From Arthrobacter wenxiniae (lineage in GTDB: Bacteria; Actinomycetota; Actinomycetes; Actinomycetales; Micrococcaceae), in the NCBI RefSeq assembly GCF_013376105.1, contig NZ_JAAMFM010000003.1, forward strand, positions 62,001-126,000: a stretch of 64,000 nt of DNA, read 5' to 3'. Numbering within the stretch: the first letter of the stretch is position 1; the number at the start of each line of letters is the position of its first letter. Shown one piece after another: positions 1 to 5,219 of this stretch. The notes under the pieces were generated by a model. That model was not told the origin of the DNA, ran no database searches, and saw only the letters and a list, made by a program, of their open reading frames with translations. A program made the translations under genes and the position numbers.

Positions 1-1227
<1,227 letters not shown>

Positions 1228-1229
1228 CT

Positions 1230-3119
1230 CTAGTCCTCTTCTTCCCACACCGGGGTCATGTTGCGGGCAACCTGGATCTGGTCGTTGCTGACGCCGGAGG
1301 GGACCATCGGCCACACCATGGAGTCGGGGCTGACCACAAAGTCGATGACGACCGGGCGGTCGTTGATGGACAGCGCCTTTTCAATGGTCGCGTCGAGGTC
1401 CTCCACGCGCTCGCAGCGCAGCCCCACGCACCCGTAGGCGTCCGCGAGCTTCACAAAGTCCGGGACGCGCATGGAGTCATGGCCCGTGTTCAGGTCGGTG
1501 TTGGAGTAGCGGCTGTTGTAGAAGAGCGTCTGCCACTGGCGCACCATGCCGAGTGAGGAGTTGTTGATGATGGCAACCTTGATCGGGATGTCGTTGATCC
1601 GGCAGGTGGCCAGTTCCTGGTTGGTCATCTGGAAGCAGCCGTCACCGTCAATGGCCCAGACCACGCGGTCGGGGTTGCCCACCTTGGCGCCCATCGCCGC
1701 GGGCACCGAATAGCCCATGGTGCCGGCGCCGCCGGAGTTCAGCCAGGAGTGCGGGCGCTCGTACTTGATGAACTGGGCGGCCCACATTTGGTGCTGCCCG
1801 ACGCCGGCAACGTAGACGCCCTCCGGGCCGGTCAGCGCGCCGATGCGCGAGATGACGCGCTGCGGGGACATGAGGCCGTCTTCCGGCTCGGTCCAGCCCA
1901 GCGGGTAGGTGTCGCGCAGGTTGCCCAGGAACGCCCACCAGTCACTGAGGTCCGGCGCCCCGTTGGCCTCGAACTCGGCCTTCACGGCGGCGGAGAGGTC
2001 CGGGATGATCTCCTTCACGGAGCCCACGATCGGGACGTCGGCGGTACGGTTCTTGGAGATTTCCGCGGGGTCGATGTCCGCGTGGATCACCTTCGCGTGC
2101 GGGGCGAAGCTGCTGAGCACGCCGGTGACGCGGTCGTCAAAGCGGGCGCCCAGGGTGATGAGCAGGTCCGACTGCTGCAGCGCCGTCACGGCGGAGACCG
2201 TGCCGTGCATGCCCGGCATGCCGACGTGCAGGCGGTGCGAATCCGGGAAGGCGCCGCGGGCCATGAGCGTTGTGACGACCGGCGCGCCCGTCAGCTCGGC
2301 CAGCTCCATGAGTTCCTTGGACGCGTGCGACTTGATGACGCCGCCGCCCACGTACAGCACGGGCTTCTTCGCCTCGCGGATCAGCCTGGCGGCCTCGCGC
2401 AGCTGCTTGGAGTGGCCGCGGAACACGGGCCGGTAGCCGGGCAGGTCGATGACCGGCGGCCAGGAGAAGGTCATCTGGCCCTGCTGGGCGTCCTTGGACA
2501 CGTCCACCAGGACGGGGCCGGGGCGCCCGGTGGAGGCGAGGTGGAAGGCCTCGGCCAGGACGCGCGGAATGTCCTGGGCGTTGGTGACCAGGTAGGAGTG
2601 CTTGGTCACCGGCATGGTGATCCCCACGATGTCCGCCTCCTGGAAGGCGTCCGTTCCGATGACGGCGCTTGACACCTGGCCCGTGATGGCCACCATCGGC
2701 ACCGAGTCCATGTGGGCGTCCATGATGGGCGTGACCAGGTTCGTTGCGCCCGGGCCGGAGGTCACGATGCACACCCCGACCTCACCGGTGACCATGGCGT
2801 AGCCCTGGGCCGCGTGGCCGGCGCCCTGTTCGTGGCGCACCAGGACGTGGTTGAGCGAGGAGGCCATGAGGGGGTCGTAGGTGGGCAGGATCGCCCCGCC
2901 GGGAAGCCCGAAGACGTCCTTGACGCCAAGCTCTTCAAGTGAACGGACAAGTGCCTCGGAGCCGGTCATCTGCACGGGCGCCACAACATTGTTGGGACCT
3001 ACGACGGCGGTGGCCGGGCCTGAGGGGCTGGCTGCGGCGGCGCTGCTGCCTGCGGCCGCCCCATGCCCGTGGGACTTGGCGGCCATCAGCGCTGGGCTGG
3101 CGGGCTTTCCTTTACTCAT
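1230..3119 (-). CDS. ilvB: Acetolactate synthase, catalytic large subunit
   Basis: ThDP/FAD-dependent acetohydroxyacid synthase; condenses pyruvate with pyruvate or 2-oxobutyrate, the committed step of branched-chain amino acid synthesis. 629 residues: a Ser/Ala-rich N-terminal extension of about 50 residues, then the PYR domain with the catalytic glutamate in [16 protein letters not shown], the central FAD-binding region (about 240-390), and the PP domain with the ThDP motif GDG ... IINN. First gene of ilvB-ilvN(-ilvC). A 250-base leader with a coding mini-ORF and a terminator precedes it, so attenuation control is likely. Confidence 0.97.
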
Positions 3120-3221: not shown

Positions 3222-3261
3222 AAAAAAACCCCTCAGCCGTCAGGCTCTCATCGAGGGGTTT
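3222..3261 (-). terminator. Attenuator terminator in the ilvB leader
   Basis: Read leftward, AAACCCCTC (3253-3261) pairs with GAGGGGTTT (3226-3234), with an inner AGCC/GGCT stem (3235-3246), followed directly by a run of seven T (3222-3228). This is a canonical intrinsic terminator. It lies about 75 bases after the leader-peptide stop and 100 bases before ilvB. That arrangement fits transcription attenuation of the ilv operon rather than termination of an upstream gene. Confidence 0.85.
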
Positions 3262-3336
3262 GCACGTGTTGCGACGTTCTCTTCATTGTTTGTCAGAGGG
3301 TCATGGCCTTATGGTGTGGCCACTTTGCGTCACGCG

Positions 3337-3369
3337 CTAGCTAATGACGACTACGAGCTTCATATGCAT
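3337..3369 (-). CDS. ilvB leader peptide (attenuation sensor)
   Basis: Ten-codon ORF on the leftward strand, ATG at 3369 and TAG at 3337-3339, reading MHMKLVVVIS. Five consecutive residues, Leu-Val-Val-Val-Ile, are products of the pathway controlled downstream. A GGGAG ribosome-binding sequence lies about 7 bases before the ATG. In Corynebacterium and other actinobacteria such peptides precede ilvB: ribosome stalling at the Val/Leu/Ile codons when charged tRNA is scarce blocks formation of the terminator. The identity rests on composition, position and the downstream terminator. Confidence 0.85.
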   Translation of the reverse strand: MHMKLVVVIS

Positions 3370-3425
3370 GTCTGTAGTCTCCCGTTTTCCTGACCGGGGT
3401 GTCAAACAGCCCGCAGGCCCATCTC

Positions 3426-3447
3426 ATTATGTGGACACATGGTCCAC
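3426..3447 (-). promoter_or_regulatory. Putative ilvB promoter with overlapping palindrome
   Basis: Leftward, a near-perfect -10 (CATAAT, 3426-3431) is directly preceded by, and overlaps, the palindrome GTGGACCATGTGTCCAC (3431-3447; arms GTGGAC/GTCCAC, 5-base spacer). No good -35 lies 17 bases upstream of the -10, so the palindrome may be an activator or repressor site in place of a consensus -35. Transcription from here would give about a 50-60-base 5' segment before the leader peptide. IclR-type NdgR/LtbR regulators act on ilv/leu genes in actinobacteria, but I cannot assign this site to one. Confidence 0.5.
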
Positions 3448-3479: not shown

Positions 3480-5219
3480 CTAGCCGCACCAGGCGCCCGT
3501 GGAGGCGCTGTTGACCAGCTTCGCGTACTTGGCCAGCACGCCCGAGGTGAACTTGGCCGGCAGCGGCTTCCAGCCCACCTTGCGCGCCTCCAGTTCAGCG
3601 TCGTCGACCAGGAGATCGAACGTCCGGGCGGCGATGTCCACGCGGATCTTGTCGCCGTCGCGCACAAAGGCGATGGGTCCGCCGTCGGCCGCTTCCGGGG
3701 CAACGTGGCCTATGCACAGGCCGGTGGTGCCGCCGGAGAAGCGCCCGTCCGTGAGCAGCAGCACGTCCTTGCCGAGGCCGGCCCCCTTGATGGCGCCGGT
3801 GATCGCGAGCATCTCGCGCATGCCGGGGCCGCCCTTGGGGCCCTCGTAGCGGATGACGACGACGTCGCCGGCGTGGATTTCGCCGTTGTCGAGGGCGTCC
3901 AGGGCGCCCTGCTCGCGCTCAAAGACGCGGGCGGTGCCTTCGAAGACGTCCAGGTCGAAGCCCGCGCTCTTGACGACGGCGCCCTCCGGTGCGAGCGAGC
4001 CGTGCAGGATGGTGATGCCGCCGGTCTTGTGGATCGGGTTGTCCAGGGCACGCAGCACCTTGCCGTCCGGGTCCGGCGGGTTGATCTCGGCCAGGTTCTC
4101 GGCAACCGTCTTGCCGGTGACGGTGAGGGCGTCGCCGTGGAGGAGTCCGGCGTCGAGCAGTGCCTTCATGATGACGGGCACCCCGCCGATCTTGTCGACG
4201 TCGAACATCACGTAGCGGCCGAAAGGCTTCAGGTCGCCCAGGTGAGGGATCCTGTCGCCGATGCGGTTGAAGTCCTTGAGCGTCAGGTCCACGTGGGCCT
4301 CGCGGGCAATGGCGAGCAGGTGGAGGACGGCGTTGGTGGAACCGCCGAACGCCATGGTGACCGCGATGGCGTTCTCGAAGGCCTTCTTGGTCATGATGTC
4401 GCGGGCCCGGATGCCCTGTTCCAGCAGGTGCACCACGGCCTCGCCGGACTTGCGGGCAAACATGTCGCGGCGGCGGTCGGCGCTGGGCGGCGCGGCCGAG
4501 CCGGGGAGGGACATGCCCAGGGCCTCGCCGATGCACGCCATGGTGTTGGCCGTGTACATGCCGCCGCAGGCACCCTCGCCGGGACAGATGGCCCGTTCGA
4601 TGCTGTCCAGGTCCTTCAGGCTCATCTTCCCCGCGGCGCAGGCCCCCACGGCCTCGAAGGCGTCGATCAGCGTGACTTCCTTCTCCGTGCCGTCCTCCAG
4701 CTTGGCGAAGCCGGGCATGATGGAGCCGGCGTAGAGGAACACGCTGGCCAGGTTCAGGCGGGCCGCGGCCATGAGCATGCCGGGCAGGGACTTGTCGCAG
4801 CCGGCCAGGAGCACGGAGCCGTCCAGGCGTTCGGCCATCATGACGGTTTCCACGGAGTCGGCGATGACTTCCCTTGAGACCAGGGAGAAGTGCATGCCCT
4901 CGTGGCCCATGGAAATGCCGTCGGAGACGGAGATGGTGCCGAACTGCATGGGGAAGCCGTCCGCGGCGAACACACCCTCCTTGGCGCCCTGGGCCAGGCG
5001 GTTCAGGGAGAGGTTGCAGGGGGTGATTTCGTTCCAGGAGCTGGCGACGCCGATCTGCGGCTTGCGGAAGTCGTCGTCGCCCATGCCCACGGCGCGGAAC
5101 ATGCCCCGGGCCGGGGAGGCGTGGATCCCGTCGGTGACGACGCGGCTGCGGGGCTTGATGTCCGGCTTGCCGTCTGCCGTCCGGACAATGTCATCTGCTG
5201 CATTGGTCTCCACGCTCAT
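3480..5219 (-). CDS. ilvD: Dihydroxy-acid dehydratase
   Basis: Iron-sulfur dehydratase making 2-oxoisovalerate and 2-oxo-3-methylvalerate, the third common step of valine/isoleucine synthesis. 579 residues, full length. Cluster-ligand cysteines are in TPCNL (Cys68), the family motif GCDKSLPG (Cys141) and [12 protein letters not shown] (Cys218). It lies upstream of the ilvB leader in the same direction, separated by 110 bases with an independent promoter candidate for each. The ATG at 5219 has no Shine-Dalgarno sequence but sits 6 bases behind TAGACT, suggesting leaderless translation. Confidence 0.97.

Follow-up and report, generated by a model that had tools for sequence, protein, structure and literature searches.

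How is the expression of the ilvBNC operon adjusted in Arthrobacter wenxiniae, where a short reading frame rich in valine, leucine and isoleucine codons and a hairpin followed by a T tract stand directly in front of ilvB? The locus lies in a stretch of 64,000 nucleotides, analysed here as a whole and called the window, and all the genes concerned are read leftward. Attenuation before ilvB is already known in Corynebacterium, Streptomyces and M. tuberculosis. Seliverstov listed the leader peptides and terminators of ilvB for Corynebacterium, Mycobacterium and Streptomyces in 2005 (PMC1262725). In M. tuberculosis, the read-through of the ilvB1 leader rises upon BCAA starvation in a manner dependent on the uORF codons, and the conversion of LVVI to AAAA abolishes the induction; the same logic was proposed there with the support of reporters (PMC13236596). 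In S. coelicolor, the replacement of the candidate regulatory codons of the ilvB leader left the regulation unchanged, as reported in PMC1262725. Within openly licensed papers, nothing was found on the ilvB leaders of Arthrobacter.

Layout of the ilvD-ilvB interval

The identities of ilvB and ilvD were confirmed with NCBIfam models, and the start of ilvC lies downstream of ilvN in the window. Read leftward from ilvD, the interval contains in order the GTCCACATAATGAGA site, the -35 and -10 boxes, the uORF, a structured stretch of 75 nt and the terminator. The features, in window coordinates, are as follows.

3480..5219, minus strand: ilvD, dihydroxy-acid dehydratase, the upstream neighbour (TIGR00110)
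3422..3436, minus strand: GTCCACATAATGAGA, putative NdgR/LtbR-like (IclR-family) operator, read directly and assigned by motif
3400..3405, minus strand: -35 box TTGACA, conserved, at a fixed distance from the uORF ATG
3376..3381, minus strand: -10 box GAGACT, 6 nt upstream of the uORF ATG, conserved in placement
3337..3369, minus strand: uORF MHMKLVVVIS*, ATG at 3369 and TAG at 3339-3337, read directly and conserved
3331..3337, minus strand: 5′ strand of helix P1, GCGCGTG, overlapping the last base of the stop codon, from covariation
3303..3323, minus strand: hairpin within P1, GTGGCC/GGCCAT, from the fold and from compensatory changes in genus-mates
3273..3302, minus strand: second hairpin within P1, GAC-CTCT/AGAG-GTC, from the fold, less well conserved
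3262..3268, minus strand: 3′ strand of P1, CACGTGC, flush with the terminator, from covariation
3222..3261, minus strand: intrinsic terminator AAACCCCTC...GAGGGGTTTTTTT, read directly, from the fold and from conservation
1230..3119, minus strand: ilvB, acetolactate synthase large subunit, the regulated gene (NF005860 / TIGR00118)
715..1227, minus strand: ilvN, acetolactate synthase small subunit, from the ORF and its sequence, start inferred

The terminator consists of a 9-bp stem, in which AAACCCCTC (3261-3253) pairs with GAGGGGTTT (3234-3226), an inner stem AGCC/GGCT (3246-3243/3238-3235) and a T7 tract (3228-3222), and it is conserved across the genus and the family. The leader RNA folds better than its shuffled versions (z -3.2). 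With the leader as the blastn query, the same leader was recovered in 22 genus-mates, and their alignment keeps the -35 and -10 boxes, the uORF and the terminator around a variable spacer. Most genus-mates retain the peptide pattern M-x-x-x-L-(V/P/L)-V-V-(I/L)-S, and an almost invariant block, ATTAGCTAGCGCGTGA, marks the end of the uORF in this alignment. The sequence-only reading of this DNA had described a 10-codon frame with Leu-Val-Val-Val-Ile in a row, followed about 75 bases later by a 9-bp hairpin with an inner stem and a T7 tract (3222-3261) and then by ilvB; both the frame and all of the coordinates were borne out, and the conservation that it expected of relatives is found in the uORF codons and the terminator of the genus-mates and also of the family. 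Its statement that all the parts of an attenuator were visible holds for the uORF and the terminator, while the promoter, the leaderless start and P1 had escaped it.

The TTGACA and GAGACT boxes are separated by a spacer of 18 nt and form a predicted sigma-70-type promoter. The fixed spacing between this promoter and the ATG puts the predicted transcription start at 3369, on the A of the uORF AUG, so that the uORF of Arthrobacter is predicted to be transcribed leaderless. Such a start agrees with the mapped starts of two relatives: start-site data show leaderless transcription of both IlvL and LeuL2 in S. lividans (PMC8079986), and in C. glutamicum, the +1 of ilvBNC and the start codon of the uORF are one nucleotide apart (PMC11857589). 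A fold in which GACUAC pairs with GUAGUC was discarded, because GACUAC belongs to the -10 region, which the transcript probably does not include.

The fixed spacing also allows the uORF to be searched for without regard to its peptide, as an ATG preceded by TTGAC at 35-38 nt and by an nAnnnT box at 6-7 nt. Among 139 ilvB upstream regions from across the family, 117 contain exactly one such site, and the opposite strands of the same regions contain 1 site altogether. All 117 sites open ORFs of at most 35 codons, in which isoleucine, leucine and valine make up 49% on average and never less than 30%. A run of at least four of these residues occurs in 74% of the uORFs vs 0.7% of the other short ORFs of the same regions; the uORFs of this second comparison were chosen partly by their I/L/V content, and therefore the peptide-blind scan is the fair test. 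The observation of the uORF together with the terminator is far beyond chance.

Upstream of the promoter, GTCCACATAATGAGA matches the motif KTYCRSMWYSYGRRM (taken from PMC8222616) at 13 of 15 positions, and an operator-like site is visible at the same place across the family. In S. coelicolor, ilvB is a ChIP-seq target of NdgR (PMC4340878). The family-wide presence of an NdgR/LtbR-like site upstream of the ilvB promoter suggests that ilvBNC is probably subject to both initiation and attenuation control. Elsewhere in the genome, the operator pattern has three matches with one mismatch, about as many as the reversed control, and the one genomic match that was inspected lies near unrelated genes.

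A covarying helix at the base of the terminator

The minimum-energy fold of the leader pairs GCGCGUG (3337-3331) with CACGUGC (3268-3262) and thereby forms the helix P1, which ends exactly where the terminator starts. P1 was found in 95 regions, which represent 23 genera, and in almost all of them 2-4 nt separate it from the CCC of the terminator. An automatic search for P1 with loose terminator bounds returned mixed helices and was not used. RNAalifold recovers the helix without its being imposed, with four pairs changed on both sides, and the re-dealing of the strands among species lowers the pairing (253 paired cells vs at most 244 in 1000 shuffles). In a class-wide alignment of 98 sequences, which was fitted to the covariance model, both partners vary in 8 of the 9 P1 pairs, 128 cells of the whole structure are changed on both sides vs 38.8 in shuffles, and a shift of the partner by 1-3 columns destroys the covariation signal. 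Because of this fitting, RNAalifold and the re-dealing are the cleaner tests of P1.

The 5′ strand of P1 lies inside the uORF in the majority of the other genera, where it encodes (K/R)-R-V. The window's genus and two further groups (L026-L029 and L122-L130) have a stop codon ahead of the strand and still keep its nucleotides, which points to selection on these nucleotides as RNA. Across genera, the region inside P1 is conserved neither in length nor in sequence. Compensatory changes in the first inner hairpin of the window's genus include GCGACC/GGTCGC in one genus-mate (L017). In many genus-mates, the sequence GATGAGAG of the terminator loop (3252-3246) occurs again in the loop of the second inner hairpin.

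Spread across the class and the match of codons to genes

Of the 395 genomes sampled from the class, 144 contain the element according to a covariance model built from 32 sequences of the family (R1). A second model, built from the family and the matches of R1 (R2), raises this number to 328, and these genomes represent 122 of the 138 genera; the E-values of both models are rough. Among 80 named ilvB loci, R1 has a match at 50, each time in the same orientation as ilvB, including loci of Streptomyces, Kitasatospora, Mycobacterium, Nocardia, Rhodococcus, Actinomadura, Nocardioides and Janibacter. The window itself scores 47 bits, and the named ilvB leaders of Streptomyces, Kitasatospora and Mycobacterium score 28-44 bits in the sense orientation. 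No second copy of the element was found in the window's own genome, where the next-best matches fall on an ordinary terminator (19 bits) and a coding region (17 bits). In one family of the same order, no model match occurs in the listed genomes, and the rest of the class is mostly positive, which suggests loss or divergence in that lineage. Eleven low-scoring matches were treated as noise, because they lack a BCAA uORF or a BCAA gene.

The element is not restricted to ilvB. At 74 inspected loci, it precedes ilvB (61), cimA (10) or ilvA (1), and two low-scoring matches precede neither. In genomes with several copies, the extra ones stand before cimA, before leuS or, in two cases (L322 and L351), before other genes; the gene families were confirmed. 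Before cimA, which encodes citramalate synthase, the order of uORF, P1 and terminator recurs at 27 loci, with runs of isoleucine codons in the uORF. The uORF MPQHIMIIN precedes an ilvA-like threonine ammonia-lyase gene (L283/L318). At four loci, the element stands before leuS with uORFs containing LLL, which match LeuL2 of S. lividans. With a single uORF picked manually at each locus, by the frame entering the 5′ end of the model and not by content, II was present in 27 of 27 cimA uORFs vs 1 of 63 ilvB uORFs (Fisher P 4e-22), and LLL in 4 of 4 leuS uORFs. The attenuators of leuS are known in Streptomyces (PMC1262725, PMC8079986), and no attenuators before actinobacterial cimA or ilvA were found described in openly licensed papers. 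The two copies before other genes have the isoleucine-run uORFs MFTPRIII (L322) and MMFALVIIM (L351); the gene downstream of the former encodes a small protein that appears ACT-domain-like by eye and has no NCBIfam match.

These distributions bear on two simpler explanations of the locus. The hairpin could be only the terminator of ilvD, which lies upstream on the same strand and whose read-through it would also stop, with the small ORF as a chance frame. Such a reading is highly improbable, since a conserved promoter and a uORF rich in Val, Leu and Ile codons stand between ilvD and the terminator in 117 of the 139 regions, P1 covaries across the class, and the same element occurs before cimA, ilvA and leuS, genes that differ from ilvB both in kind and in their surroundings. 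The leader RNA could also be a riboswitch or a protein-binding RNA, for example a ppGpp riboswitch or a T-box, beside which the uORF would be incidental. Firmicutes ilvB genes use ppGpp riboswitches (cited in PMC10272879), two further hairpins lie within P1 in the genus of the window, and the recurrence of GATGAGAG in both loops of many genus-mates would suit a structured RNA of this kind. However, the interior of P1 is not conserved across genera, whereas the codons of the uORF are conserved and follow the downstream gene. A search of the window and six relatives against Rfam gave no match at the gathering score and, at a relaxed threshold, only a chance-level match to Fluoride. A riboswitch or protein-binding RNA is thus very unlikely.

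Probable attenuation and the proposed role of P1

The comparisons described above establish, at the level of sequence, the promoter, the uORF, P1, the terminator, their geometry and the match of codons to genes in relatives. The conserved uORF codons, the covarying P1, the terminator and the tracking of downstream genes by the codons strongly support a ribosome-mediated transcription attenuator of ilvBNC, which is the best explanation of the leader (probability about 0.9). The leader-peptide attenuator of the sequence-only reading is thus by far the best reading; its reference to Corynebacterium ilv leaders, as a place where the mechanism is established, is correct, the ilvBNC attenuator of that genus having been characterised by mutation (PMC10272879, PMC11857589).

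Under this attenuator, the RNA would start at the A of the uORF AUG, and the ribosome would load on the leaderless 5′ end and trail the RNA polymerase. When the Leu-, Val- and Ile-tRNAs are charged, the ribosome would reach the UAG at 3339-3337 and cover the 5′ strand of P1, the terminator (3261-3222) would form and the transcription would stop. When Leu- or Val-tRNA is short, the ribosome would stall at codons 5-7, leaving P1 (3337-3331 with 3268-3262) free to form against the base of the terminator, and the transcription would proceed into ilvB. The leading edge of the ribosome was assumed to be about 13 nt away from the first base of the codon in the A site. Under this assumption, P1 stays free in 95 of 95 leaders when the ribosome halts on at least one of the I/L/V codons, and its 5′ strand is fully covered in 94 of 95 when the ribosome stands at the stop codon. 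In the window, the stalls at Leu5, Val6 and Val7 leave P1 free, and those at Val8 and Ile9 do not. An antiterminator should be exposed with just this polarity.

A pairing that competes with the terminator was searched for in both of its arms. The sequence-only reading had proposed an alternative antiterminator pairing with 3253-3261, and this pairing is absent: over 23 genera, the leaders pair with the 5′ arm less than the shuffled leaders do (mean z +0.9), and an antiterminator overlapping this arm was rejected on account of this avoidance. The pairing of the leader with the 3′ arm shows no general enrichment (mean z +0.4), and for this reason the C. ulcerans type of antiterminator, which pairs with the 3′ arm, was rejected as well. 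The values for the window's genus are +1.2 for the 5′ arm and +0.3 for the 3′ arm. P1 and the terminator share no bases, and both are present in the minimum-energy fold whether or not a ribosome is stalled. P1, which abuts the terminator, is the best candidate for the antiterminator. From the absence of shared bases and of a conserved pairing with the arms, we infer that P1 would act by adjacency, through steric or kinetic hindrance.

In textbook attenuators, the antiterminator overlaps the terminator. It is possible, though we put it forward tentatively, that one architecture serves most of the class, with an exchangeable sensor for ilvB, cimA, ilvA and leuS and with P1 blocking termination without competition for bases; P1 would then sit against the terminator's base and in this depart from the textbook arrangement. 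The element in the window itself is expected biology. What deserves attention is the class-wide motif, whose targets match the codons of its uORF, and the position of P1 flush against the terminator. The motif predicts isoleucine-sensing attenuators before cimA and ilvA, and the position of P1 raises the question of how a helix that abuts the terminator, rather than overlapping it, can suppress it.

A rather unlikely variant retains the attenuation and assigns P1 the role of a pause hairpin, with the true antiterminator in another, lineage-specific pairing, such as that of the uORF codons with the segment 5′ of the 3′ strand of P1. P1 would trail the polymerase at roughly the distance needed for a pause at the terminator loop to be stabilised, the uORF of several genera is strongly complementary to the segment ahead of the 3′ strand of P1, and C. 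glutamicum has an additional anti-antiterminator (PMC11857589). Yet the window's genus (z -0.4) and several other genera lack this complementarity, whereas P1 is general. A pairing of the Val codons with the segment before the 3′ strand of P1 was tried and rejected, since it is strong in some genera and absent in the window's genus (mean z -0.8). Strong complementarity of the uORF codons to the segment just before the P1 3′ strand was seen, for example, at five loci (L035, L051, L073, L132 and L141). Since it crosses P1, such complementarity could form an alternative fold or a pseudoknot; by analogy with C. glutamicum, it could serve as an anti-antiterminator in several genera.

With P1 retained as the candidate antiterminator, the element can be compared with the known leaders. 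The IlvL leaders of Streptomyces and Mycobacterium share the BCAA-rich uORF (leaderless in S. lividans, where IlvL is MRTRILVLGKRVG; PMC8079986), the terminator with a U tract and ilvB downstream; the end of their uORF (...KRVG, ...RRVGA) overlaps the 5′ strand of P1, and the named leaders are detected by the model built from Micrococcaceae. The window's genus differs in that the uORF stops before the KRV codons, and therefore the 5′ strand of P1 follows just after the stop codon, and in that the loop closed by P1 is longer and contains two extra hairpins. The ilvB-II motif and ilvBNC leader of Corynebacterium likewise combine a near-leaderless uORF rich in Val, Leu and Ile with a terminator, an antiterminator and the same operon. 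The BCAA-rich uORF overlapping a hairpin and followed by a terminator, as in ilvB-II, is found here, the motif being compared by its description; the antiterminator of C. glutamicum shares bases with the terminator (positions 76-78), whereas no bases are shared here. The LEU element of leuA (PMC1262725) is also a leader peptide with BCAA codons in Actinobacteria, but it involves a pseudoknot with the Shine-Dalgarno box of leuA, lacks a typical terminator and is not matched here. The leuS and trpS attenuators of Streptomyces have a leaderless leader peptide as well, and that of leuS also has a terminator, with a different target gene and different codons. The leuS leaders found in the present analysis contain LLL, and most of them have PR at their end, as does LeuL2 (MRAVRLLLSEPR).
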